The notes under the pieces were generated by a model. That model was not told where the DNA came from. It did no database searches and worked only from the letters and a program-made list of their open reading frames with translations. Positions 17,950 through 34,367 of a DNA stretch of 36,452 bases are shown here, in pieces (within the stretch, counting starts at the first letter, position 1; the number at the start of each line of letters is the position of its first letter). Made by a program: the position numbers and the translations under genes. This stretch comes from Candidatus Eiseniibacteriota bacterium (GTDB lineage: Bacteria > Eisenbacteria > RBG-16-71-46): assembly GCA_025360715.1 (NCBI GenBank), contig JANYBS010000057.1:1-36452 (forward strand), read 5' to 3'.

Positions 17950-18013
17950 CGAGGGACCGGCATGGGGACCGGTCCCTCGTCTCGCGCAGGCAGCGGGTCA
18001 GGGGATCGCTGCC
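17950..18013 (-). terminator. Two hairpins downstream of the secreted Ig-like gene
   Basis: A perfect 11-bp stem (CGAGGGACCGG / CCGGTCCCTCG, 17950-17979) is followed on the minus strand by CGATTTCTCC, a weak T-rich stretch. A second stem, GGCAGCG / CGCTGCC (17989-18013), lies nearer the stop. Together they probably end the transcript of the gene at 18040-18726 before the M48 gene. Confidence 0.55.
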
Positions 18014-18039
18014 GCGCGCACGTCATGTTCGACAAAGTC

Positions 18040-18726
18040 TCAGCGCAGCACGACCACACGCCGCACCCACTCCCGCCCGCCCGCACGCGCGCGAACGAAG
18101 TAGACGCCCGGCTGCGAGCGATGCCCGGCATCGTCGTGCAGATCCCACGTGAGCGTATGCGGCCCAGGCGTGAGTTCGCCGCGCTGCAACGAGCGAACGA
18201 GCCGCCCGCTCACGTCCATCGCCTCGACGAATGCAGGACCGCGCGTGGGTAGAGTGAGCGTGAACGTCGCCTGGACACGCGCCGGCACAGGGAAGCCCTC
18301 GGAGAACGACAGCACGTTGACGCCACCACCAACGCCTGCGACCTGCTGCGCCGCCAGCACGTTGGAGATGCGCGACCAGTTGCCGCGCCGATCTCGCGTG
18401 CGCAGCGCGAAGTACACCGTCGTGCTCTCGGGAAGATCGGGGATCACCAGATGCTCGATCGTGCCCGGATCCGATGGCGCGGCAACCGAGATGCGTCGCG
18501 CTGTGAAAAAGCGCGTCGGGAACTGGTTCGCGTGCAGCGACCAGCGCAGGTCGTACTCCGCGGCGCGGCCATAGGTGCTGTCATCGCCCGGCGCGGTCCA
18601 CTCGAGGATGATGTTGTTCGCACGTGCCACCCGCGCGGTCCCCAGGAGTCCTGCACCCGCTACGGCGATCGACATCACGAACAGCCACAGGACTCTGGAT
18701 AGCGAACTTCGGACCACCACGGACAT
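18040..18726 (-). CDS. Small secreted fibronectin-III/Ig-like protein with C-terminal sorting-like domain
   Basis: This protein of about 228 residues has a signal peptide (LWLFVMSIAVAGAGLL, cut near RVARA). A fibronectin-III-like domain (WTAPGDDSTYGRAAEYDLRWS, then YFALRTRDRRGNWSRISN) matches a pattern common in FCB secreted proteins. The FlgD-Ig-like module follows (FVEAMDVSGRLVRSL, LTWDLHDDAGHRSQPGVYFVRA, ending VVVLR). No enzymatic motif is present; binding or adhesion is possible. The start is uncertain: the ATG at 18726 follows GGAGG by only 3 nt, a GTG at 18720 has ideal spacing, and the frame opens at 18750. It stands alone between the B12 operon and the M48 gene. Confidence 0.72.
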   Translation of the reverse strand: MSVVVRSSLSRVLWLFVMSIAVAGAGLLGTARVARANNIILEWTAPGDDSTYGRAAEYDLRWSLHANQFPTRFFTARRISVAAPSDPGTIEHLVIPDLPESTTVYFALRTRDRRGNWSRISNVLAAQQVAGVGGGVNVLSFSEGFPVPARVQATFTLTLPTRGPAFVEAMDVSGRLVRSLQRGELTPGPHTLTWDLHDDAGHRSQPGVYFVRARAGGREWVRRVVVLR

Positions 18727-18865
18727 CACCCTCCGAAGAGTTACAGGCACAGGCAGTTCACGTCCCCATGACTGGCAGCGGCGCGAGATGACGCGCGGCC
18801 GAGGGCCGGAGGATGGAGCGCGGGTAAGTGTCTACCATCGTGCACTTTGCAACAAGCCGTTAGTT

Positions 18866-18997
18866 GTGGAGCGGAGAATGTGGATGGAGGCTGCCAACCG
18901 CTTGGTCTGGCAAGGGGTTACACGCCAGGAGACGGAAAATAGCGTAACACGTAGTCCAATAATCACTTAACCACTCCATCCACATTCTTCGCTCCAC
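18866..18997. repeat. 24-bp inverted repeat pair enclosing an AT-rich core
   Basis: Arms at 18866-18889 and 18974-18997 are complementary over 24 bp with one mismatch (the right arm has A where the left has G). They flank 84 bp that are visibly poorer in GC than the neighbourhood. The core holds a smaller hairpin (TGCCAACC / GGT-C-TGGCA) and a GTTAC / GTAAC pair. No open reading frame or clear target-site duplication was seen. It sits 3 nt after the stop of the BtuG-like gene. It could be a miniature inverted-repeat element, a long 3' stem of the B12 operon, or a regulatory structure. Confidence 0.7.
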
Positions 18998-18999
18998 CA

Positions 19000-20406
19000 T
19001 CAGCGGACAACCAGCAGACGGTGGGTAAGGGCCTGGCCACCCACCTGGGCGCGTACCAGGTACACCCCCGGTGCCACCCCGGCAAGGTCCCAGGTCTCGC
19101 TATGCGCGCCTGCTGGCAAATCCCCGGCGAACAGCGTGCGCACGCGGCGCCCGGTCGCGTCGAAGGCGTCCATTCGCGCGGGGCCGCCCTGGGGCAGCGT
19201 CAGAGTGAAACGGGCGCTCGTGCGAGCGGGGCTGGGCGCGGGTGGTGCGAACGCGAGCGTGGGCGTGGCGGACGGCACGTCGCCGACGGATCCGGACGCG
19301 CTGTCGAACGTGAGTGCGACCGGCGGCAGCGTGCACGCGAGCGGGCCGGCCAGGCTCTGGCCGCTGGCGGCGCTGAACACTCGCACGCCGCTGGTGCCGA
19401 AGCCGTTGTCGCACACCCACAGCTCGCCAGCGTCGTTCTCGGCGATGTCGCCGATCGCGAAACCGCCGGGCGCGTAAATGGTGTCGGTGATCGCGGCGCG
19501 AGTCAGGTCGACTCGCAACAGCAGCGTGTTGAACGCCACGTCGCTCACCACGGCGAATGCGTGACCGGCGCCGGGACGGCCGGGCGCAAAGCTGATGGCG
19601 TTCACGTCGCCGTGCAGTTGCGACTCGCGCATGGCGATGCCGGCGCTCTTGAGCGCGACGGGATCGAGCCACTCGATGCCACCATCGAGCACGCTGTAGT
19701 CGCCCACGCAACCGATGGCCAGCCGGCTCGTGGCGGCGTCGAACTGGAACGCGGTCACGGGGTTCGTCAGCTGCAGGCGGATCGCCTGGATGCCAGGCTT
19801 GCTCGCGTCGCAATCCACGATCGCATCGGTGCGCGTGTCCACCACCGCCACGAGTGACGTATCGGTGGCCACGAAGCCATGGGCGCGGTCCACGCGTTGC
19901 AGCGAGATGAAGAGCAGCGGGCCCACCGTGATCATGTGGTCCATCTCGGGAATGCCGTCGGCGTCGGCGAAGGCGGCCAGTGAAATGGTACCGGTGTGCG
20001 CGCCGGTCTGCGGGTTCACGATCCACAGATCGCTACTCTCGTAGCGCGTCACGTACGCCTTGATCGGCGACGCGAAGGCGATGTCGTACGGGTTCGAACC
20101 ATTGCCCACTGAGAACTGCAGCGTGGTGTTGCCCGTCACGGGGTCGACCACCTGGATATTGTCCGCGCCGAAGCGGTTCACCACGTACAGCTTGCCGTTG
20201 TAGTAACGCAGCCGGGCGTCGGAGTGGACGCTCGCGATGTCGCAGTGCTTCGTGCGCGGGGCCACGTCGATGCTCGACAGGCTGCCGGTCGTGTAGTCGG
20301 TCTGGAAGACGAACGCGCGAGTGGCGGCCTGCGCGTGCGGCGCGAGCAGGCCGAGCGCCGCGCACATCGACGCGGCGAGAAGCAAAAGGTGGTGACGAGT
20401 CTTCAT
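19000..20406 (-). CDS. YncE-type beta-propeller in B12 operon, candidate BtuG-like surface cobalamin binder
   Basis: This 468-residue exoprotein has a signal peptide (HHLLLLAASMCAALGLLAPHAQA). Residues 25-380 are YVTN/YncE-like blades (GKLYVVNRFGADNIQVVDPVTG, KAYVTRYESSDLWIVNPQTG, SLVAVVDTRTD, GELWVCDNGFG). A FlgD-Ig-like module ends the protein (MDAFDATGRRVRTL, ETWDLAGVAPGVYLVRA, LLVVR). It begins 26 nt after the receptor gene, with GGAG 6 nt before its ATG, and is downstream of a cobalamin riboswitch. In Bacteroides, BtuG is a propeller that binds B12 on the surface and caps BtuB. By operon, fold and secretion this protein is a candidate counterpart, but it has no lipobox and would need the C-terminal module for display. 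The B12-binding role is inferred. Confidence 0.75.
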   Translation of the reverse strand: MKTRHHLLLLAASMCAALGLLAPHAQAATRAFVFQTDYTTGSLSSIDVAPRTKHCDIASVHSDARLRYYNGKLYVVNRFGADNIQVVDPVTGNTTLQFSVGNGSNPYDIAFASPIKAYVTRYESSDLWIVNPQTGAHTGTISLAAFADADGIPEMDHMITVGPLLFISLQRVDRAHGFVATDTSLVAVVDTRTDAIVDCDASKPGIQAIRLQLTNPVTAFQFDAATSRLAIGCVGDYSVLDGGIEWLDPVALKSAGIAMRESQLHGDVNAISFAPGRPGAGHAFAVVSDVAFNTLLLRVDLTRAAITDTIYAPGGFAIGDIAENDAGELWVCDNGFGTSGVRVFSAASGQSLAGPLACTLPPVALTFDSASGSVGDVPSATPTLAFAPPAPSPARTSARFTLTLPQGGPARMDAFDATGRRVRTLFAGDLPAGAHSETWDLAGVAPGVYLVRAQVGGQALTHRLLVVR

Positions 20407-20432
20407 GAACTGCTCCGATGGCGAGAGGAGTT

Positions 20433-22535
20433 TCAGTGATTCGTGTTGTCGTTTTCAGCAAGGCCGAAGCGTGTCTCGCATGCGACGAACACGCTGCGGC
20501 CAGGAAGCGGGAATCCGGCCAGGTCCTGCGCTCGAACATCGCCAAGGTTCTTGCCCTCGAGCGTCACGCGCACGAGCCCAAGCGCGCGCGAGAGCGACGC
20601 GCCCGTAAGCGTGCGCGAGGGCGCGCGGCGAAAGTTGATCGGGTCCAGAAAATCGTCCGACAGGTATTGCACGTCGGCGGCCACGCGCCACGCGCCAGCG
20701 CGCGCATCGAGCCGTCCGTATGCGCTGCGCACGGGGCGCTGCGGCAGGCGGCGGCCGTCGTAGAGCGACGCGGCGTCGGTCTCGAGCGCCGACAGCCAGC
20801 TGAGCGAGCCACTCGCTGCCAGCGAGCGCCACAGCACGCGCGCGCTCGTCTCCTCGCCACGTAGCTCTGCTCGCGCCACGTTGCGCGCGCGCACGCTGCT
20901 CTGCGAGTAGCGCTGGAACACGATGAGGTCGCGCGGATGCGATTCGTGGTGCGACCACTCGAGCGCGCCGCACCATTCGCCCGCGGCGCCGCTCCAGCCG
21001 CCGCCCACGTCCCACCCTTCGCTGTGCTCAGGCTTCAGCTGCGGATTGCCGGCCGTCGCAGCCTGATCGCCGAAGAGTTCGACGAACTCGGGCGCGCGCG
21101 CGGTCTTGCTCCAGTTCGCGCGCACCTCCAGCGCGCGCGGCAACAGCAGCCGCGCGCCCACCTGCGGCGCGTCGAGCGTGCGCGCCGCGTCGCTCACGCG
21201 CAGCAGGCCGCCAGCGCCGGTCGTGCGCAGATGATCGTCCTGCGCGTCCCAGCGCCGGCCCGCATGCAGCAGCAGCCGGTCGCCAGCGATGTGCGCCTGC
21301 AGCGCGAGCCATGCGCTCTGCGTACCTCGATGGCTTTCGGGCGGCGTGGGCTGGCCCTGCGTGAGCGGCGGCGCGGTCTCGCGCTCGCGGCGCGCGCCCG
21401 CACCCACACCGGCGGTGACCCAGCGCCACGCCGCGGGGCTCGCCAGCTCGAGCGTCACGCCGCTCGAGTGCTCGTGCGTATCGGTGTCCTGGACGCCGTA
21501 GCCCAGCTGCCCGCCCGTGTCGCGGAATCGCGAGCGCTCCGCGCCTAGATCACCGCGCCATGTGAGTGTGGGCCACTGCGGCGCGGCGCCCATGCCGATC
21601 TCGCCCACCGTGATCGCGCGCGAGAACGCTAGCGACGGATTGCGCGCGGGCACATTGCCGAGCCCGGGCACGCCCTGCGCCTTGCGGAAGAACTCTTCGC
21701 GCACGCTGGCGCGCACAGCCGGCCGCGGCGCCCAGCCCACGCGTGCAAGCGCCGTGAACGCGTCGAAGCGGTCGTTCACACGCGTGAGCGTCACGTCATC
21801 GCCCGGATTGAGCGGCGTACCGTTGTCGCTGCGGTACGCGTAGTCGCCACGCGAGCCTTCGTAGCCGGCATGCGTGAGCAGCGACCACGCACCGGGCGAG
21901 GCCGCGTACGTGCCGCGGGCGATGCGCGTGCCGAATGAACCCGCCGCCACACGCAGCACTCGCGCTTCGCCGCCGGCGGCGGTCACCAGATTCACCGCTC
22001 CACCGGGTGTGGGCACACCGAGCGCGAGCGGCGCCGCGCCGCGATAGACCTCGACACGTTCCACCGCGCCCAGCGGCAAGTCGGAGAGATCGACCACGCC
22101 GTGCGCAGCAGACGTGATGGGCACGCCGTCAAGGAACAGGCTCACCTGCCCCGGCGCCGCGCCGCGCAGCGACACGGTGCTGAAGGCGCCCAGGCCGCCG
22201 TACTGCACGATGCGCACACCTGCCGCCGCCGAGAGCAACTCGGGCAGCGACTCCACGGCGCGGTTGGCAGCGTCGGCGCGCAGGTCGGTCACCGACGCGG
22301 TGGGTGCGCGGCGACGCGCATCGCGCAGCACGCGCTCGCGCGAGACTTCGATCGCCGGCAGCGTGCGCACGGGTGTGGGCAGCGCGGCATGCGCGGAGTC
22401 GCGCTCCGCCGCGGCGTTTGCAACGCGCGAGGGTGCGAGCGGCATGTGCAGGGACAGAGTCCACGCGATAAGAAGTGCGGCCAGTGTATCGATCACGGCG
22501 TCGATCGCGCTCGAATCGAAGACGCCCCGCCTCAC
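20433..22535 (-). CDS. btuB: BtuB-like TonB-dependent cobalamin receptor
   Basis: This 700-residue outer-membrane receptor has a signal-like stretch (VIDTLAALLIAWTLSL). A plug domain spans about residues 75-190 (LPELLSAAAGVRIVQYGG, TVSLRGAAPGQVSLFLDGVPI, AVERVEVYRGAAPLALG). The rest is a 22-strand-type barrel with the TonB-receptor signature WSKTARAPEFVELFGD and NPQLKPEHSEGWDVG. A cobalamin riboswitch lies 88 nt upstream, so cobalamin or a related corrinoid is the likely cargo, taken up with TonB energy. The C-terminus runs about nine residues past the last strand instead of ending in an aromatic residue. The GTG at 22535 has no good ribosome site; a GTG 13 codons inside is a possible alternative. 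No ABC transporter genes (btuCDF) are in the window. Confidence 0.87.
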   Translation of the reverse strand: MRRGVFDSSAIDAVIDTLAALLIAWTLSLHMPLAPSRVANAAAERDSAHAALPTPVRTLPAIEVSRERVLRDARRRAPTASVTDLRADAANRAVESLPELLSAAAGVRIVQYGGLGAFSTVSLRGAAPGQVSLFLDGVPITSAAHGVVDLSDLPLGAVERVEVYRGAAPLALGVPTPGGAVNLVTAAGGEARVLRVAAGSFGTRIARGTYAASPGAWSLLTHAGYEGSRGDYAYRSDNGTPLNPGDDVTLTRVNDRFDAFTALARVGWAPRPAVRASVREEFFRKAQGVPGLGNVPARNPSLAFSRAITVGEIGMGAAPQWPTLTWRGDLGAERSRFRDTGGQLGYGVQDTDTHEHSSGVTLELASPAAWRWVTAGVGAGARRERETAPPLTQGQPTPPESHRGTQSAWLALQAHIAGDRLLLHAGRRWDAQDDHLRTTGAGGLLRVSDAARTLDAPQVGARLLLPRALEVRANWSKTARAPEFVELFGDQAATAGNPQLKPEHSEGWDVGGGWSGAAGEWCGALEWSHHESHPRDLIVFQRYSQSSVRARNVARAELRGEETSARVLWRSLAASGSLSWLSALETDAASLYDGRRLPQRPVRSAYGRLDARAGAWRVAADVQYLSDDFLDPINFRRAPSRTLTGASLSRALGLVRVTLEGKNLGDVRAQDLAGFPLPGRSVFVACETRFGLAENDNTNH

Positions 22536-22621
22536 CCGAAGGCAACAGAGACGGGGAAACGGGGCCGCAAGGACGCCGTCACCGCGTCTGCCTTCTTCAG
22601 AGGCAACGGGCGTGGATGGCT

Positions 22622-22800
22622 TCCGGGCAGGTTTCCTGACTTAGGGTGCCGGAGCGCTTGCGCGTTTCCAGACGATGCTCGCCTTCCCGGTGACCTCGCG
22701 GTCACCCGTGGCATCGGAGCATCGGCACCCTTCACAGTGGCGGGACCGTGCGGGAATCTCACCCGCTTCCCTCTTACCCCACAAGATGTGGGCACCTGGA
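22622..22800 (-). ncRNA. Cobalamin (B12) riboswitch
   Basis: Reading the minus strand, the hallmark elements occur in order: CCAGGTGCC near the 5' end, GAGGGAA, GGGTGAGATTCCCGC, GGTCCCGCCACTGTGA, a variable paired region, and the B12-box-like AAGTCAGGAAACCTGCC at 22625-22641. Order and spacing are those of the classic cobalamin riboswitch. It lies 88 nt before the BtuB-like start with nothing between, so it should lower receptor and propeller expression when adenosylcobalamin or a related form is plentiful. Which corrinoid it prefers, and whether it stops transcription or translation, cannot be decided by reading. Confidence 0.93.
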
Positions 22801-22813
22801 AGATGTCGCTCGC

Positions 22814-22843
22814 AGCATGGCGCGGCGCGCACCGCGGCGTCAA
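22814..22843 (-). promoter_or_regulatory. Promoter of the B12 uptake operon
   Basis: On the minus strand TTGACG (22838-22843, five of six consensus bases) and CATGCT (22814-22819, three of six) are 18 nt apart. The predicted start falls a few bases before the riboswitch's first conserved element, as expected. Confidence 0.5.
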
Positions 22844-22897
22844 TGACTTTGAATTGGAAGTGCGTGCGCGCCGCTCCAGTAGCGGCTGCGGCGTGTG

Positions 22898-23647
22898 TCA
22901 GCGATCGTGGGAAGCCCGCGGCAGCTTGTCCACATGCGCGCGCATGCGGTCGAACACCGCCTGCCACATGGCGCGTGTGAGCCTCCCGGTCTGGGTGTTC
23001 TGCCGGCTCGGGTGGAACGTGCTCGCGAGCAGGGTCCCATCGGGCAGCGTGGCTTCCGCGCCATGTCCGAACAACGGGCGCTCACGCGGCGGCAGGAGGT
23101 CCCACCAGCCGCTCGCGCGCAGGTAGGCCTCGTGGCCGATGCGGCCCAGCGCGAGCACGATACGCACGTTGGGCAGCAGCACGAGTTCGCTCTGCAGATG
23201 CACGCGGCAGGCGACGAGCTCTGCGGGCTCGGGCCGGTTGCCCGGCGGCGCGCAGCGGCCGGCGGCGCCGATCCAGGCGCCTTGAAGCTGCAGGCCATCG
23301 CCGCGCGCCGTGCTCGTGGGCTGGTTGGCGAAGCCCGAAGCGTGCAGCGCCGCGAACAGCCAATCGCCGCTCGAGTCCCCGGTGAACATGCGCCCGGTGC
23401 GGTTGGCGCCATGCGCACCGGGCGCAAGCCCCACGAGCAGCAGTCGCGCGGCAGGATCGCCGAAGCCCGGCACGGGCTTGCCCCAGTACGTCTCGTCGCG
23501 GTAGGCGCGACGTTTCTCCACCGCGACCTGCGCACAATGCTCGCGCAGCCTTGGACAGAGCGTACACGCGACGATGCGCTTCTCGAGCGCCGCGAGCGTG
23601 CGCGGCGGCGCGGGCTCTCGCGCGGTCACCTTGCGCCCGGGGCGCAT
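22898..23647 (-). CDS. udgB: Family 5 uracil-DNA glycosylase (UdgB type)
   Basis: This 249-residue DNA repair enzyme removes uracil, and in family 5 also some other deaminated bases, from DNA. The first catalytic block is GLAPGAHGANRTGRMFTGD, the family 5 form with no Asp or Asn in the GLAPx position; the second is FHPSRQNTQTGRLT. Four cysteines placed for an Fe-S cluster are C28 and C31 (CTLC), C132 and C147. The ATG at 23647 gives a short basic lead before the first cysteine pair. It begins 24 nt after the secreted glycosidase-like gene and may share its transcript, though the functions are unrelated. Confidence 0.92.
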   Translation of the reverse strand: MRPGRKVTAREPAPPRTLAALEKRIVACTLCPRLREHCAQVAVEKRRAYRDETYWGKPVPGFGDPAARLLLVGLAPGAHGANRTGRMFTGDSSGDWLFAALHASGFANQPTSTARGDGLQLQGAWIGAAGRCAPPGNRPEPAELVACRVHLQSELVLLPNVRIVLALGRIGHEAYLRASGWWDLLPPRERPLFGHGAEATLPDGTLLASTFHPSRQNTQTGRLTRAMWQAVFDRMRAHVDKLPRASHDR

Positions 23648-23671
23648 CGCGCGCGACTCATCGCGCGCAAC

Positions 23672-25288
23672 TCATCGCGCAGCATGCCCCAGCCACGTCA
23701 CGCGGCGAACGCGCACGGCGCGTGAGTCTTCGAGCCGCGCAAAGTAGAGCCCGGGTGTCACCGCGCGGCCGTCATCGCCGCGGCCATCCCATGTGATGAT
23801 GCTCGCACCCGTTGCGAACCGCCGCGCCCAGACGCGGCGGCCCGTCACGTCGAGCAACTCCAGGTGCGACGCGCCCGCCATGCCACTCACCTCGAAACGC
23901 ACCGAGGTGTGCGCGGGCTGCGGGCCCGCGAGCAAGCGCAGCGGGCCGCTGCCCGCGCCGAGCGCATCGAGCGGCTGTGACAGGCGCAACAGTGTGAAGT
24001 CGCCAGGTGCCAGGTCGAGCGCCACGCTCACGCCCTGGCTCGCGGGCGCGGGTGCCAGCGCGCGCCACACGCCCAGCGAATCGAGTCGGCTCGCATCGCG
24101 CACACCGCGCAACGTGAGCGTGATGCGCTGCGCGAGCGCGGAATCACTGTTCGCGACTAGCACGCACGGCGCGCCGGTGGAGTCGGCGAAGAGACCCAGC
24201 GCACAGCGGCCCTGCACGCCCTCGATCAGGCTGTCGGGCGCGAAGGGCGTGCCGCCGGGCTCCACGGAGCCCGCGTGCTCGGTCGCCAGCCATTGCATGC
24301 GCGCGAGGGTCTCGCCCAGCGGCCGCAGGCGCTTGTCTAACTGCTGCACGAAGTCATAGTGCCACGTGCGCGCGCCTTCGCCCCACGTGATCATAGCGGG
24401 CTGCCAGCGATAAATGGAATCCGGTGCAGGCGTCCAGTACGTGAAATAGCCGATGCCACGCGCGCCATATGAGAGCCACTGGCCGATCTGCCAGCGCAGC
24501 ATCCCGGCATCGACCGCTCGGTACGTACCATGCTGCACGAGCAGGACGATCCCCCAGAACGGCAAGGCGTTCTCGCGCGCGACGCTTGCGAGCCCCGCGA
24601 TGTTCTCGATCAGCTGATGACGGTCCCCGCTTCCCAGGAATTCATACTGATCATTGCAGAGTACCGCCGGCTGCGTCAGCGACACATACGTGCGCGTGTA
24701 GTCGAGCCACGCCTCGCGCGAGGGGAATCCGCTGCGCCCGAGCAGGTTGTTCCAGCACGGGTGAGCCGCGTCGCGAATGCGCAGTTCCCGGAAGAGCACC
24801 TGCAACGTGCCGAACTCGTTCGGGTTCGGTTCATCGCCCAGGTAATAGCCCAGGAACGCAGGGTCGTCGCGGTAGCGCGCCGCGACCGAGTCCATGTGCG
24901 CGTACGTGCTGCCGTCGCCCGGCACGACCTTCTCGAGCTCGCGATCGAACAGCAGGTTGCGCACGCCAAGGCTGCGCGTGAAGTCGAGGCGCTTGCGGTT
25001 ATCGCTCACGCGCCCGGAGTCCTCCCACGCGAGAACGGTCATGTTGAAGCCCGCTCCGGCGAGTTCGGCGTAACGCGCTGCGGTCGTGGAATCGAGCGGC
25101 GGGCTGACCCAGCCGAAGAGCGTGAATGCCGGCAATGTGGATGGCGACGTGGAGGACACCATGGTGCGAGTCGCGGCGATCCCGGCCGGGACGCGGCCCT
25201 CCCGCGCGGGCCGGTCCGCGGCGGCCGTGGCGGCAAGCAGCAGCGCGAGCGATACGGCGGCGAACCGCCGGCTTCGGTGAGTGGTCAT
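23672..25288 (-). CDS. Secreted glycosidase-like TIM-barrel protein with C-terminal sorting-like domain
   Basis: This 538-residue exoprotein has a signal peptide (FAAVSLALLLAATAAA). Residues 55-330 look like a glycoside-hydrolase (beta/alpha)8 barrel: FTLFGWVSPP, AGAGFNMTVLAWED, FLGYYLGDEPNPNEF (D-E-P where clan-A enzymes keep the acid/base Glu), LPFWGIVLLVQHGTYR, and ARGIGYFTYWTPAP. A beta-sandwich-like region and then the FlgD-Ig-like module follow (LELLDVTGRRVWARR, ITWDGRGDDGRAVTPGLYFARL). A polysaccharide-degrading role is plausible, but the nucleophile and family number were not fixed. AAGGG lies 8 nt before the ATG. The gene is divergent from the first permease gene. Confidence 0.78.
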   Translation of the reverse strand: MTTHRSRRFAAVSLALLLAATAAADRPAREGRVPAGIAATRTMVSSTSPSTLPAFTLFGWVSPPLDSTTAARYAELAGAGFNMTVLAWEDSGRVSDNRKRLDFTRSLGVRNLLFDRELEKVVPGDGSTYAHMDSVAARYRDDPAFLGYYLGDEPNPNEFGTLQVLFRELRIRDAAHPCWNNLLGRSGFPSREAWLDYTRTYVSLTQPAVLCNDQYEFLGSGDRHQLIENIAGLASVARENALPFWGIVLLVQHGTYRAVDAGMLRWQIGQWLSYGARGIGYFTYWTPAPDSIYRWQPAMITWGEGARTWHYDFVQQLDKRLRPLGETLARMQWLATEHAGSVEPGGTPFAPDSLIEGVQGRCALGLFADSTGAPCVLVANSDSALAQRITLTLRGVRDASRLDSLGVWRALAPAPASQGVSVALDLAPGDFTLLRLSQPLDALGAGSGPLRLLAGPQPAHTSVRFEVSGMAGASHLELLDVTGRRVWARRFATGASIITWDGRGDDGRAVTPGLYFARLEDSRAVRVRRVTWLGHAAR

Positions 25289-25350: not shown

Positions 25351-27330
25351 GTGCTCGAACGATTGCGTGACCTCCTGATCGGAGGGCGGAAAAACCTACT
25401 CGACCCACAGATCCATCATCAGCTCGCGCTGATCGCGTTCTTCGCTTGGGTCGGCTTGGGCTCCGATGGACTGTCTTCCTCGTCCTATGGCCCCGAAGAA
25501 GCGTTCCTCGCGCTCGGGCACCACACGCACCTCGCACTGTACCTGACCGTGGCCATGGTGCTCACGGTCTTCCTGATATCGGCGTCGTATAGCCAGATCA
25601 TCGAACTCTTCCCCAGCGGCGGCGGCGGCTATCTGGTGGCCACCAAACTGCTGGGCCCCACGGTGGGACTGATCTCGGGCAGCGCGTTGGTCGTGGACTA
25701 CATGCTCACGGTCGCCACGTCCGTGGCGTCAGGCTGCGATGCGATCTACTCGTTCCTGCCGCACACGATGGTCGGCACGAAGATGATATCGGAGTTCCTG
25801 GTCATCGCCGGATTGACCGCACTCAACCTGCGCGGCATCAAGGAGTCGGTCAAGACCCTGATCCCGATCTTCATCACGTTCTTGATCACCCACTTGGCAC
25901 TCATCCTCTGGGGGATCTTCTCGCACGGTCAGGCGCTCGGCGTGATCATCCCCGACACCGTGCGCGACACGCACCTGGCGGTGCAGGAACTCGGCACGCT
26001 TGGCGTGCTGGCGATATTCCTGCGGGCGTTCTCGCTCGGCGGCGGCACGTTCACCGGCATCGAAGCGGTCAGCAACGGCGTGCAGATCCTGCGCGAGCCG
26101 CGCGTACACACGGCGAAGAAGACCATGTTGTACATGGCCACGTCGCTCAGCTTCACGGCCGGCGGCATCCTGCTGTGCTACCTGCTCAACGACGTGCATC
26201 ACATCGCCGGCCAGACGCTCAATGCCTCGCTGTGGACAACGCTCACGCGCAACTGGCACATCGGGGGCGTCAACCTCTCGCCCGCGATCGTGAGCATCAC
26301 GCTGCTGTCCGAGGGCATGCTGCTCTTCCTCGCGGCGCAGACGGGCTTCATCGACGGCCCGCGCACGCTCAGCGTGATGGCGGTCGACAATTGGGTGCCA
26401 AAGCGGTTTGCGCACCTCTCCGAGCGCCTCGTCACGCAGAATGGCGTGCTCATCATGGCCATCGCGACGGTGCTCGTACTCGCGTACACGCATGGCGACG
26501 TGCGCATGCTCGTGGTCATGTACTCGATCAACGTGTTCATCACCTTCACGCTCTCGCAGATGGGCATGGTGCTGCACTGGTGGCAGGTGCGAAAGACCGA
26601 AGCGCACTGGCGCCGCCGCTTCCTGCTGGCCCTGGTCGGCACGCTTGTCACGGGCACCATCTTGATCATCACGTCGGTCGTGAAGTTCGGCGAAGGCGGC
26701 TGGGTCACGCTCGTGGTCACCGGGATCCTGATCGGCTTCTGCCTGATCGTCCGCCGCCACTATGACCAGGTGCGCGACGTGCTCAAGCACCTCGATGAGC
26801 TGCTCACGAACCTGCCGATGTCGGCGAATGAGAAGTCCCCGGAACTCGTACCCGAGGGCCCGACGGCGATCGTACTCGTGGAGTCGTATGCCGGGCTCGG
26901 CATCCACACGTTGCTCAGCATCCAGCGGATGTTCCCGCGCCACTTCAAGAACTTCGTGTTCGTCACGGTCGGGCAGGTCGACTCTGGGCAGTTCAAGGGC
27001 GCCGAGGCGATCGAGGCGCTCGAAGCCAAGTGCCGCGACGATCTGGAGCGCTACGTGGAGTTGGCGAACCAGATGGGCTATTACGCCGAGTATCGCTATA
27101 CGCTTGGCACCGAGCTGATCACCGAGCTCGAGCACATGACGCAGTCGCTCACTCGCGAATTCCGCCGCTCGCTCGTCTTCGCGGGCCAGTTGGTATTCCA
27201 GCGAGAGACACTCTTCACTCGCACGCTTCACCACGAGACCGCGTTCTCGATCCAACGCCGCCTGCAGTTCCTCGGCATCCAGGTGATCATCCTGCCGATC
27301 CGCGTCTGGGAGCAGAAGCGCACCGCCTGA
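25351..27330 (+). CDS. APC-superfamily permease with cytosolic C-terminal domain (first copy)
   Basis: This 659-residue inner-membrane protein has about twelve membrane spans in residues 25-475, followed by a soluble C-terminal domain of about 180 residues. Typical blocks are GLGSDGLSSSSYGPEEAFLALG in the first span, ELFPSGGGGYLVATKLLG and ALVVDYMLTVATSVASG. These resemble amino-acid permeases of the APC superfamily and also KimA-type potassium importers, which carry a C-terminal cytosolic domain. Substrate (amino acid or K+) is undecided. The next gene is a full-length paralogue with only 5 differences in the first 102 residues. Start is GTG, supported by the identical start context in the paralogue. 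Confidence 0.87.
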   Translation: MLERLRDLLIGGRKNLLDPQIHHQLALIAFFAWVGLGSDGLSSSSYGPEEAFLALGHHTHLALYLTVAMVLTVFLISASYSQIIELFPSGGGGYLVATKLLGPTVGLISGSALVVDYMLTVATSVASGCDAIYSFLPHTMVGTKMISEFLVIAGLTALNLRGIKESVKTLIPIFITFLITHLALILWGIFSHGQALGVIIPDTVRDTHLAVQELGTLGVLAIFLRAFSLGGGTFTGIEAVSNGVQILREPRVHTAKKTMLYMATSLSFTAGGILLCYLLNDVHHIAGQTLNASLWTTLTRNWHIGGVNLSPAIVSITLLSEGMLLFLAAQTGFIDGPRTLSVMAVDNWVPKRFAHLSERLVTQNGVLIMAIATVLVLAYTHGDVRMLVVMYSINVFITFTLSQMGMVLHWWQVRKTEAHWRRRFLLALVGTLVTGTILIITSVVKFGEGGWVTLVVTGILIGFCLIVRRHYDQVRDVLKHLDELLTNLPMSANEKSPELVPEGPTAIVLVESYAGLGIHTLLSIQRMFPRHFKNFVFVTVGQVDSGQFKGAEAIEALEAKCRDDLERYVELANQMGYYAEYRYTLGTELITELEHMTQSLTREFRRSLVFAGQLVFQRETLFTRTLHHETAFSIQRRLQFLGIQVIILPIRVWEQKRTA

Positions 27331-27406: not shown

Positions 27407-29386
27407 GTGCTCGAACGATTGCGTGGCCTTCTCATCGGCGGCAGGAAGAACCTCTTCGATCCCCAGATCCATCATCAGCTCGCGCTGATCGCCTTCTTCG
27501 CGTGGGTCGGACTGGGCTCGGATGGGCTTTCCTCGTCGTCCTACGGCCCCGAGGAGGCCTTCCTCGCCCTCGGCCAGCACACCCACCTCGCCCTGTACCT
27601 GACCGTGGCGACGGTGGCCACCGTCTTCCTGATCTCGGCCTCGTACAGCCAGATCATCGAACTCTTTCCCAGCGGCGGTGGCGGTTACCTCGTCGCCACC
27701 AAGCTGCTGGGCGAAGGCCCCGGCGTCATCTCGGGCAGCGCTCTCGTCGTCGACTACGTGCTCACGATCTCGATCTCGATCGCTTCCGGCGTCGATGCGA
27801 TCTTCTCGTTCGTGCCGCCGGAGTTCCAACTCTGGAAGCTCCCGATCGAGGTCTTCGTCGTCCTCGGACTGACGGGGCTCAACCTGCGCGGGATCAAGGA
27901 GTCGGTATCGGTCCTGATGCCGATCTTCATCGCGTTCGTGCTGACTCACCTGGTGCTGATCGTGTACGGATTGTTCGTGCACGCGGGCGCATTCGGGTCC
28001 TTGATCGCCGATACCACGGTCGACACCCACCGGGCCGTCGGCGAGATGGGCATCCTCGCGGTGATCGCGCTGTTCCTCAAGGCATTCTCGCTGGGCGGCG
28101 GCACATTCACCGGTATCGAGGCCGTGAGCAACAGTACGGCCATGCTGCGGGAACCGCGCGTCGAGACGGGCAAGCGCACGATGCTCTACATGTCGTTGTC
28201 GCTCTCGTTCACGGCCGGCGGCATCTTGCTGTGCTACCTGCTCAACAACATCCACCACGAGGCTGGCAAGACGCTCAACGCCGTCCTGTGGGAGACGCTC
28301 ACGCGGAGCTGGAGCGTGGGTGCATTGCCCGTGGGCCACGCCCTCGTCGTCTTCACGCTGCTCGCGGAAGGCGCACTGCTCTTCGTGGCCGGGCAGACGG
28401 GCTTCCTGGCCGGGCCTGCGACCCTGGCGGCGATGGCCCTGGATAACTGGGTGCCCAAGCGATTCGCGCATCTCTCCGAACGCCTGGTCACGCAGAACGG
28501 CATCATCACGATGGGGCTCGCCGCCGTCGCCACACTTTTCTATACCGGCGGCCAGGTGAAGATCCTCATCGTCATGTACTCGATCAATGTGTTCCTCACG
28601 TTCACCTTGTCGCAACTCGGCATGGTGCGGCACTGGTGGCAGGTCCGGAAGACCGGGGCCCACTGGCGCCGCCGCATCACGCTCGCATCGCTCGGCACTC
28701 TGGTCACCGGCGGCATCCTGATCGCGACCTCGGTCATCAAGTTCACGCAGGGCGGCTGGGTGACGCTGGCGGTGACCGGTGTGTTCGTGGGTGTCTGCGT
28801 GCTGGTGCGGCGCCACTACCATCGCGTGCGCCACGTGCTCAAGAGCCTGGATGATGTGCTGAGCGACTTGCCGATGCCGGCGCGCGAGCAGGCGCCCGAA
28901 CTGGCCCCGGAGGGGCCCACGGCATTCATCCTGGTCGAGGCCTACGCGGGGTTGGGCATCCACACCTTGCTGACGGTGCAGCGTATGTTCCCGCGCCACT
29001 TCAAGAACCTGGTCTTCGTCTCGGTCGGCCTCGTGGATTCGGGTCAGTTCAAGGGCACGGAAAGTGTCTCGGCGCTCGAAGCCAAGGTCCGCGCCGACCT
29101 GGAGCGCTACGTGGACCTGGCGCAGCGCATGGGTTATTACGCAGAGTACCGGTACACGCTCGGAACCGACCTGATCGAGGAACTCGAGCATATCTGTCTG
29201 GATTTGATGAAGGAATTCCGCCGTTCTTTGGTGTTCGCTGGCCAGCTGGTATTCCAGCGCGAGACGTTGTTCACTCGCACCTTGCACCACGAAACGGCAT
29301 TCTCGATCCAGCGCCGCCTCCAATTCGGAGGCATCCAAGTGATCATCCTGCCGATCCGGGTCTGGGAACAGGACCACTCGGCATGA
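27407..29386 (+). CDS. APC-superfamily permease with cytosolic C-terminal domain (second copy)
   Basis: This 659-residue paralogue of the gene just upstream has the same length and aligns end to end without an obvious gap. Membrane blocks GLGSDGLSSSSYGPEEAFLALG, FPSGGGGYLVATKLLG and SALVVDYVLTISISIASG are kept, as is the C-terminal domain (EGPTAFILVEAYAGLGIHTLLTVQRMFPRHFKN, ending in RIRLQF-like and LPIRVWEQ blocks). Differences cluster in the segment after the fifth span (FVPPEFQLWKLPIEVFVV against FLPHTMVGTKMISEFLVI) and in the loop near residue 205, so the copies may differ in substrate or regulation. Neither copy is broken. Confidence 0.87.
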   Translation: MLERLRGLLIGGRKNLFDPQIHHQLALIAFFAWVGLGSDGLSSSSYGPEEAFLALGQHTHLALYLTVATVATVFLISASYSQIIELFPSGGGGYLVATKLLGEGPGVISGSALVVDYVLTISISIASGVDAIFSFVPPEFQLWKLPIEVFVVLGLTGLNLRGIKESVSVLMPIFIAFVLTHLVLIVYGLFVHAGAFGSLIADTTVDTHRAVGEMGILAVIALFLKAFSLGGGTFTGIEAVSNSTAMLREPRVETGKRTMLYMSLSLSFTAGGILLCYLLNNIHHEAGKTLNAVLWETLTRSWSVGALPVGHALVVFTLLAEGALLFVAGQTGFLAGPATLAAMALDNWVPKRFAHLSERLVTQNGIITMGLAAVATLFYTGGQVKILIVMYSINVFLTFTLSQLGMVRHWWQVRKTGAHWRRRITLASLGTLVTGGILIATSVIKFTQGGWVTLAVTGVFVGVCVLVRRHYHRVRHVLKSLDDVLSDLPMPAREQAPELAPEGPTAFILVEAYAGLGIHTLLTVQRMFPRHFKNLVFVSVGLVDSGQFKGTESVSALEAKVRADLERYVDLAQRMGYYAEYRYTLGTDLIEELEHICLDLMKEFRRSLVFAGQLVFQRETLFTRTLHHETAFSIQRRLQFGGIQVIILPIRVWEQDHSA

Positions 29387-31791: not shown

Positions 31792-32324
31792 TTCGCGGAG
31801 TCCGCCACTGCGGGCGTGAGCAGGCGCTTTACCGCCAGCGCGAGGGCGTCATCCTCGCCGGGCAGGTAGCCCGAATGCGCGCGCACGACATGACCATCCT
31901 GCGCGACCAGGATCGTGGTGGGCACCGAGTTCACCTGGTACTTCTGCGCGATCGAGCCGTCTTCATCGATCACGACCGGCATCCTGAGCCCCAGGCGCTG
32001 CGCGAAGGGCCGCACACGCGCATAGTTGCGCGGGCCGTCGATCGAGATCGCCACGACGTTCAAGCCCTGCGGCGCGTACTCGGCGCGCAGCTTCTCGATC
32101 GCCGGCAGCGACTCCAGGCACGGATGGCACCACGTGGCCCAGAAGTCGATCAATACGGGCCCCTTGGCGAGCGCGGTCTCGAGCTCGAACTTTTCCCCTG
32201 TGAGCGTGCGCGCGGTGAATCGTGCCGCGGGCCCCGCAGTGAGGACCGGCGCCGCCGGCCGGGCAGCGGGCGCAAGCAGCGCCACGGCTGTAGCGGCCAC
32301 GAGCAGACGGCGCCGGATCCTCAT
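31788..32324 (-). CDS. TlpA/ResA-like periplasmic thioredoxin
   Basis: This 178-residue protein has a signal peptide (RRRLLVAATAVALLAP) and a thioredoxin fold: FWATWCHPCLESLP (active site C-H-P-C), VVAISIDGPRNYARV, and the cis-proline block VNSVPTTILVAQDGHVV. Such proteins reduce or isomerise disulfides outside the cytoplasm, for instance in cytochrome c assembly. Its ATG overlaps the stop of the upstream thioredoxin-like gene and its own stop overlaps the barrel gene start, 4 nt at each junction, so the three form a tight operon. No DsbD/CcdA electron donor is in the window. Confidence 0.88.
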   Translation of the reverse strand: MRIRRRLLVAATAVALLAPAARPAAPVLTAGPAARFTARTLTGEKFELETALAKGPVLIDFWATWCHPCLESLPAIEKLRAEYAPQGLNVVAISIDGPRNYARVRPFAQRLGLRMPVVIDEDGSIAQKYQVNSVPTTILVAQDGHVVRAHSGYLPGEDDALALAVKRLLTPAVADSAK

Positions 32325-33178
32325 CGCACGACCACGATTCGCCGGGCGACGCGCGCGCCTTCGGCCTCGGCGACGACCATATACACGCCCGGCGCACAGG
32401 CGATGCCAGCATCATCGGCGCCATCCCACACCAGCGCGCGCTCGCCGGCGGCGCTGATGGCGTCCCAGAGCATGGCCACGCGCCTACCGCTCACGTCGTG
32501 CACCGCCACACGCGCCGCGGCCGCTCGCGGCAGCGACAGCGTCACCGTGAGCGCGCCACGCACCGGCGAGGGGCCCGCGCTGAGCGCAAGATGCGCGGGC
32601 AGGATGCCGGGCACGCCAAGCCCGACCGTGACGAGCGAGTCCACGCACGCGCGGATCTCGTTCAGGTGGTAGCCCTGACCGTATGCGTAGGTGAGCGCGG
32701 AGTTGTACCGCACGATGCCCTGCTTATTGATGACCGCGAAGTGATCGCGCTCGCCATACCACGGCACCATGTTCATGGCGGGATTCGCGGCCAGGTCGTA
32801 GCACCGCAGCAGCAGCGGATAGGTGACGCCGGTGTTCGTGCGGAAGCCGCGCAGCTGTGGCACCGTGCCGTCGGTCACGTCGCAGCCGAGCACCTGTACC
32901 TGCCCGGGCACCGCGGTCTTGTAATACTGGTGCAGGTTGGTCTCCACCGACGGCCCGTCGTTCAGGCAGTACTGGCAGTCAAAACCCAGTATGTGCAGGA
33001 TCAGCACCTTGCCCGCGAATTGGCTCTGCGAGGCTGTGGGCCAAGGATCGGAATCCAGCACGCTCTTGGTCCAGGCGGGCGCGGTGGCGCCCGGCGTGAG
33101 CAGCGCGGCGCAGGCCGGTGTTGCGAAGAAGGTCGCCGCACACAAGGCGGCATAGGCAAAGAGATCGCGGGCTCGCAT
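32321..33178 (-). CDS. Secreted thioredoxin-fold protein with C-terminal sorting-like domain (operon copy)
   Basis: This 285-residue protein has a signal peptide (FAYAALCAATFFATPACA). A peroxiredoxin/thioredoxin-like domain (residues 30-195) carries C-Q-Y-C in LHILGFDCQYCLNDGPS, then QVQVLGCDVTDG and HFAVINKQGIVRYNS, where a proline precedes no clear cis-Pro site. The FlgD-Ig-like module follows (VAVHDVSGRRVAML, VWDGADDAGIACAPGVYMVVA, VVVR). GGAGG lies 6 nt before the ATG. It is the first gene of the operon that continues into the TlpA-like and barrel genes. A redox enzyme tethered or sorted by this module would work at or outside the outer membrane; that location is inferred. Confidence 0.8.
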   Translation of the reverse strand: MRARDLFAYAALCAATFFATPACAALLTPGATAPAWTKSVLDSDPWPTASQSQFAGKVLILHILGFDCQYCLNDGPSVETNLHQYYKTAVPGQVQVLGCDVTDGTVPQLRGFRTNTGVTYPLLLRCYDLAANPAMNMVPWYGERDHFAVINKQGIVRYNSALTYAYGQGYHLNEIRACVDSLVTVGLGVPGILPAHLALSAGPSPVRGALTVTLSLPRAAAARVAVHDVSGRRVAMLWDAISAAGERALVWDGADDAGIACAPGVYMVVAEAEGARVARRIVVVR

Positions 33179-33306: not shown

Positions 33307-34149
33307 TCAATGCAGCCACACCAACTTCGCCGTGACGCGACTCCCGGCCGCCTGGGCCTGGGCGAAGTACACGCCACCGGGCACCATCGCGCCGGAGTCG
33401 TCGCGGCCATCCCACTCGAGCGTGATCGCACCAGGCGTTGCCGCCGCATCACGCAGAGCGCGCACGACGCGGCCATTCACGTCGAGCACGTCGACGCGCA
33501 GATGCGATGCCCCGCCCGGCAACTCGAAGCGCAGCGTCGCGCGCTCGTGCGCCGGCAACGGCCCCACGCTCAGACGCAGCGCAGTGGGCAGGCTGGGCGC
33601 GACCGCCGCGGTCTTGGGCACCAGCGGATCGAGTACGGCAAGAATCTCGTCCAGATGATAGCGGTTGCCGTGTGGCCACTTGAGCGCGGCGTGATATCGC
33701 ACGATGCCGGCGCCATCGAGGATCACGTAGTTGTCGAACGGCCCATAGAGCGATTGCAGATCTCCGCCAGCGGCGGTGGCGCCGTTCAGCAGCAGCGGGA
33801 ACTGTGCGCCCGTGAGCGACTGGAATGCGTTCACTTGTGCCGGCGTGCCGTTCCACATATCGGCACCGATGACCTTGAGCATACCGGGGCTGCGTGCTTC
33901 GTAGTATTCCGCGATGTCCTGCTCCACCGACGGTGCGGCCGCCTGGCAGAATGGGCAGTCGTACCCCAGCAGGAACAGAAGCGTCGGGTGGCCGGAAGGC
34001 GACGCGTACGAGAGCGATCCGCCGCCCAGGCGCGCCTTGCTGAATGCGGGCCCAGTCGCGCCGAGCGCGATGTCGGCACGGACGGGGCTCGCGCTGCAGA
34101 TGAGCGCGATGAAGAGGACTGCGAAGACCGAGCGGAAGACCGAGCGCAT
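33307..34149 (-). CDS. Secreted thioredoxin-fold protein with C-terminal sorting-like domain (second paralogue)
   Basis: This 280-residue protein has the same design as the gene at 32321-33178: signal peptide (FRSVFAVLFIALICSASP), a thioredoxin-like domain with C-P-F-C in LLFLLGYDCPFCQAAAPS, VIGADMWNGTPAQVNAF, and NYVILDGAGIVRYHAAL. The FlgD-Ig-like module follows (VDVLDVNGRVVRAL, LEWDGRDDSGAMVPGGVYFAQA). The ATG at 34149 has GGAG 5 nt upstream; the frame is open much further but only into non-hydrophobic sequence. It is 128 nt upstream of its paralogue on the same strand, so one transcript is possible, though a small hairpin lies in the gap. Both copies appear intact. Confidence 0.8.
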   Translation of the reverse strand: MRSVFRSVFAVLFIALICSASPVRADIALGATGPAFSKARLGGGSLSYASPSGHPTLLFLLGYDCPFCQAAAPSVEQDIAEYYEARSPGMLKVIGADMWNGTPAQVNAFQSLTGAQFPLLLNGATAAGGDLQSLYGPFDNYVILDGAGIVRYHAALKWPHGNRYHLDEILAVLDPLVPKTAAVAPSLPTALRLSVGPLPAHERATLRFELPGGASHLRVDVLDVNGRVVRALRDAAATPGAITLEWDGRDDSGAMVPGGVYFAQAQAAGSRVTAKLVWLH

Positions 34150-34337
34150 GAGAACTCCGGGCGTGAAGTGGGGTGTGGAGTGCGGTCGCGTGTCGCGCCA
34201 GCTACGCGCGGACCCTCTCACAAGTGACGGGCAAGGCGCGGAAGTGACACGCGCCTGACACCGCGCGCCGGTTCGCAAGCGCCACAGGTGAGGCGCACGC
34301 GCAGCGCCGGCCGCTGCACCCGGAGCGGGCAATGCCA

Positions 34338-34367
34338 GCGAAATGCCGGGAATTCGCGGCATTTCGC
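34338..34367. repeat. Perfect 11-bp inverted repeat inside a structured intergenic region
   Basis: GCGAAATGCCG (34338-34348) and its exact complement (34357-34367) enclose an 8-nt spacer. The neighbourhood 34326-34397 adds directly repeated GCCAGCG-n-AATGCC units, GGGCA / TGCCC flanks and a CGCCAG / CTGGCG pair that could compete with the main stem. The whole gap 34150-34466 separates divergent genes and holds the promoters of both. No clear promoter boxes or small gene were found in it. Confidence 0.6.

Follow-up and report, generated by a model that had tools for sequence, protein, structure and literature searches.

The window studied here, i.e., the 36,452 nucleotides (nt) of contig JANYBS010000057.1 from a Candidatus Eiseniibacteriota bacterium (Eisenbacteria), probably carries a riboswitch-controlled corrinoid-uptake operon in which a BtuG-like propeller protein, exported by the type IX secretion system (T9SS) and held at the cell surface, acts as a lid on a BtuB-like receptor. 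On the minus strand, a cobalamin riboswitch is followed by the gene of the receptor, a gap of 26 nt, the propeller gene, 249 nt with an inverted repeat and the gene of a small secreted protein with a C-terminal tail. The same gene order was found again in tens of genomes, and the arrangement in the window is therefore not due to chance. We infer corrinoid binding, lid geometry as well as T9SS export and attachment from homology, linkage and conservation.

Operon architecture and receptor

The aptamer of the cobalamin riboswitch (RF00174) lies in the 5' leader of the operon at 22609-22814 (-). It is complete (model positions 1-189) and scores 98.0 bits (E-value 1.7e-23), i.e., well above the gathering score of 31.5 bits, in agreement with the initial annotation, which had called it clear. 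Within the source genome (4.29-Mb assembly, 96% complete) it is the sole RF00174 match, given a genome-wide search with stricter filters for which weak matches may be lost. The promoter that had also been claimed was not reproduced: a consensus scan of both strands of 18000-23700 gave no sigma-70-like promoter, which is weak evidence for a GC-rich and uncharacterised phylum.

The receptor gene (20433-22535 (-), GTG start assumed) encodes a TonB-dependent receptor of 700 amino acids with a Plug (7.9e-17) and a TonB_dep_Rec_b-barrel (7.3e-26) Pfam domain. Its stop codon is separated from the propeller start by the 26 nt (20407-20432) noted before. We name the receptor BtuB-like, since its match to the TonB-B12 model TIGR01779 (E-value 2e-31, 109 bits) stays under the equivalog cut-off of 599.7 bits. 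When the receptor is scanned alone, the NCBIfam receptor models are ambiguous and all far under their cut-offs, with the model of the myxochelin receptor MxcH (3.8e-37) slightly ahead of TonB-B12. Furthermore, the best match in a single-sequence search of the PDB is 9gbc, a TonB-linked receptor. Both results are compatible with the idea that receptor and propeller import another ligand (siderophore- or porphyrin-like) and that the riboswitch merely tunes their expression. The family profile A2, built from 14 relatives of the receptor, argues against this, since it ranks BtuB1 of Bacteroides thetaiotaomicron (8blw_A, 1.5e-48) first and Escherichia coli BtuB (3.4e-47) second among PDB sequences, with 9gbc and other receptors lower. 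Based on this profile, BtuB1 and E. coli BtuB are the nearest solved relatives of the receptor, as the label BtuB-like had implied from the start.

A precedent for another ligand is XusAB, i.e., the siderophore piracy system of Bacteroides, which also combines a propeller protein (the lipoprotein XusB) with a TonB receptor, and XusB is found in the list of structural matches of the window propeller. XusAB binds siderophores, though, its structural match to the window propeller is lower, with BtuG about five orders of magnitude ahead of XusB in E-value, and we know of no link between XusAB and a B12 riboswitch. We thus consider import of a different ligand quite unlikely.

Relation of the propeller to BtuG

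The propeller protein (19000-20406 (-), 468 amino acids) is present as a single full-length copy in the source genome, i.e., the remaining matches listed cover its tail only. Its propeller domain spans residues 29-366 (19309-20322 (-)), and is supported by an AlphaFold2 model, Foldseek and the family alignment A1. The model, for which 28 homologues served as input, has a predicted local distance difference test score (pLDDT) of 93.1 and a predicted template modelling score (pTM) of 0.89. From its DSSP string we assigned seven blades, with the C-terminal strand closing blade 1. Among 350,542 PDB chains, Foldseek places only BtuG1/2/3 on ranks 1-14 (E-values 3.9e-15 to 3.7e-13, template modelling scores by target mostly 0.75-0.80), followed by an archaeal S-layer propeller (1.6e-11) and then by the B12-binding BtuK1, YncE and XusB.

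Sequence searches point in the same direction. The window propeller alone finds PDB sequences only weakly (E-value about 0.1), with BtuG chains making up 9 of the 11 matches. When using the family profile A1, ranks 1-9 are all BtuG (1.1e-5 to 1.2e-3), and a single-sequence search with the Myxococcota lipoprotein homologue L047 returns BtuG chains only (E-value 5.6e-5). None of the propeller families of Pfam and NCBIfam is matched by the window protein.

The general YncE-like similarity of the domain, together with an identity to BtuG of about 15%, could also be explained by an unrelated YncE/YVTN propeller that was independently recruited beside BtuB, and other B12-riboswitch loci (L101, L104) do have more divergent and more YVTN-repeat-like propellers. 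BtuG comes first both by sequence profile and by structure and is clear of YncE, such that we give independent recruitment a low probability. Sequence profile and predicted structure agree that BtuG and the window propeller are distantly homologous. The initial annotation had left open an independent or a distant version of surface B12 capture, and our results favour the latter.

This relation also shows in the distribution of conserved residues. The family motif ADADGIPEM, near residue 150 of the window propeller, aligns beside the BtuG segment GSTEQM...NCWSYQN, whose Trp we take to be Trp194 (counting the chain of 8bmy with Cys32 as first residue). Trp194 narrows the B12 cavity of BtuG and lies on the face of the DA/BC loops (PMC10404256). 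Conserved residues of the window's family concentrate on this same face, i.e., the DA/BC-face loops are better conserved than those of the opposite (bottom) face (mean of 2.60 vs. 2.05 bits, p=0.001). The proposed correspondence of fold and central face with BtuG is thus backed by both the structural ranking and the side on which conservation crowds.

Conservation of the linkage across phyla

The initial annotation had proposed to survey the co-occurrence of propeller, receptor and riboswitch in related genomes, and the outcome speaks for the linkage. Within the class of the window, full-length homologues are listed for 30 genomes. According to our tally, 25 of them have a riboswitch upstream of the propeller gene, with both on one strand of one contig; in the other five (G004, G011, G036, G042, G044), the propeller gene lies close to a contig end or on a contig that is short. 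A species-wide scan of 84,980 species genomes provided 30 distinct propeller loci, some of which are records of genomes also covered by the class survey. A BtuB-like receptor adjoins the propeller in 28 of these 30 loci, and at L039, one of the two without, the propeller directly follows the riboswitch. Where enough upstream DNA is available, a riboswitch is present at 16/20 loci, and a genome-wide riboswitch search adds L033 as the seventeenth. According to lineages and record titles, the loci are from Eisenbacteria, Krumholzibacteriota, Myxococcota, Binatota, Thermodesulfobacteriota, Nitrospirota, Spirochaetota, Pseudomonadota and Effluviviacota. All of them stem from metagenome bins, i.e., single placements are possibly binning errors, which does not hold for the overall breadth.

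We also sampled 284 genomes from the phylum to which G066 (source of the Myxococcota record L048) belongs, and take this phylum as Myxococcota. A family member with an E-value of 1e-15 or better is found in 110 of them. Of 60 genomes checked, which were picked mostly by score, 43 have a same-strand riboswitch at most 6 kb upstream, and the receptor adjoins the propeller in 17/20 fetched loci. Ten propellers of this sample are even the first gene behind the riboswitch (at 273-518 nt). The link to the riboswitch persists across phyla, even when the propeller comes first (as in these ten and L039), which is a further argument against a ligand other than corrinoids.

In the class of the window, three genomes (G021, G026, G029) bear the riboswitch and lack the propeller. 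Behind their receptor are type II secretion ATPase genes instead of a replacement propeller. B12-riboswitch loci of other groups encode more divergent propellers, either with T9SS-type tails (L101 5014-6372, L102 2809-4116, L105 648-2066) or with a dockerin-like C-terminus (L104 7785-9335). One Thermodesulfobacteriota genome has two B12-riboswitch loci with a propeller of the BtuG-like family at each (L043 5959-7458 and G062:C323:20969-21850).

Secretion signals and exchange of surface anchors

The N-terminus of the window protein (MKTRHHLLLLAASMCAALGLLAPHAQA, followed by A) looks like a type I signal peptide (residues 1-28, 20323-20406 (-), modelled as helix 2-19). The residue before its single early Cys is Met and hence there is no lipobox, as initially annotated. 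Since BtuG is defined as a surface lipoprotein with an N-terminal lipobox and a lipoprotein export signal, we class the protein as a variant that is BtuG-like rather than as BtuG itself.

At the other end, residues 391-468 (19003-19236 (-)) form an immunoglobulin (Ig)-like tail of the T9SS type A sorting or FlgD_ig type. The FlgD-Ig-like module described at first is recovered with 21.4 bits, which is under the Pfam cut-off of 27 for FlgD_ig. For TIGR04183, the T9SS type A sorting domain (cut-off 23), the tail scores 26.0 bits when scanned alone and 22.2 bits within the whole protein, and 14 of 15 aligned tails match this model. Searching the PDB with the tail profile A3 yields FlgD, PorU, the 84 kDa immunoreactive antigen (PG93) and gingipain chains, while Foldseek reports a generic Ig-like fold that allows no assignment. 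Among plasmid records, matches were obtained for the tail only and not for the propeller.

The source genome encodes homologues of the T9SS machinery, namely PorU (498 bits vs. the curated cut-off of 420), SprA_N (above cut-off on two contigs) and PorV_fam (above cut-off at at least 8 places). In addition, the C-terminal part of the PorU model matches dozens of its open reading frames.

The resemblance to FlgD Ig domains, the generic fold and a whole-protein TIGR04183 score just below the cut-off would also suit a corrinoid-binding propeller that is periplasmic or freely secreted and forms no surface lid, i.e., the tail would be structural instead of a sorting signal. We regard this as rather unlikely given the score of the isolated tail, the TIGR04183 matches of its relatives, the T9SS homologues and the many tail-like matches in the same genome, as well as the observation that lipobox and tail substitute for each other. 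Among complete homologues, none of the 12 with a lipobox (called by inspection) has an Ig-like tail, which is present in 29 homologues whose signal peptide is plain (28 assigned by pattern and L082 by eye; Fisher test p~1e-6). The lipobox is present in the relatives L039, L040, L047, L048, L075, L078, L088 and others. The lipobox forms G009/G017 and G034 are nested within well-supported tailed groups of Eisenbacteria in a tree calculated by maximum likelihood. Because of this nesting, the sequences indicate at least two exchanges of the anchor in this phylum. The other attachment route suggested by the initial annotation is thereby supported at the sequence level, i.e., by mutually exclusive lipobox and tail along with encoded T9SS components.

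Further N- and C-terminal extensions occur in the family. Four non-redundant Binatota-type proteins carry dockerin-like repeats at the N-terminus; two such repeats precede the propeller in L049, L051, L053 and L055. The Desulfococcus-like homologue L060 (5905-7221) ends with SGCFIGTA...RARRRR, a Cys-containing end that resembles a C-terminal membrane-sorting signal and has no NCBIfam match at the threshold used. The propeller of L043 shows a different C-terminal extension.

Neighboring features

The gene downstream of the propeller (18040-18750 (-)) encodes a secreted protein with a fibronectin-III-like domain and the same C-terminal tail as the propeller (FlgD_ig, 28.6 bits). A homologue is located downstream of the propeller in 7 related genomes, and the gene is probably the third member of the operon. 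The region between both genes contains a 33-nt imperfect inverted repeat around an 84-nt centre (18857-19006, RNA fold of -66.2 kcal/mol, z-score -5.75), whose outer arm overlaps the propeller's stop codon. No Rfam match above chance was obtained for the repeat and no full second copy within 368 kb of the same genome. An isolated 24-nt arm follows the stop codon of another tailed gene (L176 14128-14151).

Elsewhere in the window, 25351-27330 and 27407-29386 are tandem, closely similar transporters of the amino-acid-permease type, which probably arose by duplication. Two secreted proteins with the sorting-type tail are encoded side by side at 32321-33178 and 33307-34362, the second one with an AhpC/TSA redoxin domain.

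Discussion

Under our preferred reading, low B12 would lead the riboswitch to permit expression of the BtuB-like receptor and the propeller. The latter would be exported by Sec, cross the outer membrane by T9SS via its C-terminal sorting domain, and stay at the surface through docking on BtuB, PorU-type attachment or a combination of the two. Its loop face would bind corrinoids and hand them to BtuB, as does the BtuG lid in Bacteroides.

The closest known system is BtuB-BtuG of B. thetaiotaomicron (BtuG1/2/3; PDB 8bmx, 8bmy, 8okv, 8blw), with which the window shares the B12 riboswitch, the BtuB receptor and an adjacent seven-bladed propeller, and which provides the best fold and profile matches of its proteins. 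It differs in that BtuG has an N-terminal lipobox and a lipoprotein export signal whereas the window protein combines a type I signal peptide with a C-terminal sorting-type tail; the phylum and the family motif (ADADGIPEM) are different as well. The architecture of the window protein, along with PorU, SprA and PorV homologues in the same genome, resembles that of T9SS type A cargo with its Por_Secre_tail-type domain. BtuH/BtuJ (DUF4465) are likewise accessory B12-binding surface proteins that are genetically tied to BtuB. However, they form a separate family of neighbors of β-propeller (PF16819) genes and are no propellers themselves (PMC13398666).

Some observations weigh against our reading. 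Besides the generic, FlgD-like nature of the tail, DUF5074 (PF16819) is not matched by the window protein and by only 2/28 relatives. From the pocket residues considered for BtuG2 (Trp194, Trp272, Tyr316), the aromatic Trp194 is placed beside a gap of the profile alignment, which covers part of the protein. Given this gap and the low identity, the pocket chemistry of the window propeller may differ from that of BtuG2. Finally, a FecCD (BtuC-type) permease was not found in the source genome, which leaves the inner-membrane step unexplained. The B12-binding-domain proteins of this genome, together with the lack of both this permease and CbiC among the genes found in the 96% complete assembly, fit an organism that is obliged to import corrinoids.

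So far, BtuG was reported only from Bacteroidetes, based on BLASTP at 1e-10 within 313 gut genomes (Wexler et al. 2018, PMC6143338), and lipoprotein-capped TonB transporters seem to be exclusive to this group (Abellon-Ruiz et al. 2023, PMC10404256). Both studies tie BtuG or capped transporters to the gut. The B12-binding family DUF4465, which is separate and often found near PF16819 (DUF5074) propellers, was described for eight bacterial clades (Clarke et al. 2026, PMC13398666), and surface B12 capture outside of Bacteroidetes is therefore not wholly new. In the literature searched (freely accessible papers other than preprints), we found nothing that treats T9SS together with either Eisenbacteria or the pair of BtuB and a sorting domain, and no BtuG-like propeller from Eisenbacteria or Myxococcota or with a T9SS tail.

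In our view, it is an even call whether the BtuG-like lid serves Gram-negative bacteria in general to capture corrinoids, with surface anchors that can replace one another. Read in this way, Myxococcota and other phyla would use a lipid as the anchor, Eisenbacteria and Krumholzibacteriota the T9SS tail, Binatota dockerin-like repeats and the Desulfococcus-like form a C-terminal membrane-type tail. If true, i.e., if the lid works with any end or anchor chemistry, the 'pedal bin' of Bacteroides would not need its N-terminal lipid hinge. The natural swap of lipid anchor and sorting tail provides a ready means of testing whether the lid mechanism depends on this hinge. Given a BtuG-like family that is linked to BtuB and B12 riboswitches in Eisenbacteria, Myxococcota, Binatota and further phyla of mostly environmental origin, corrinoid capture with the help of a lid would be a widespread strategy.

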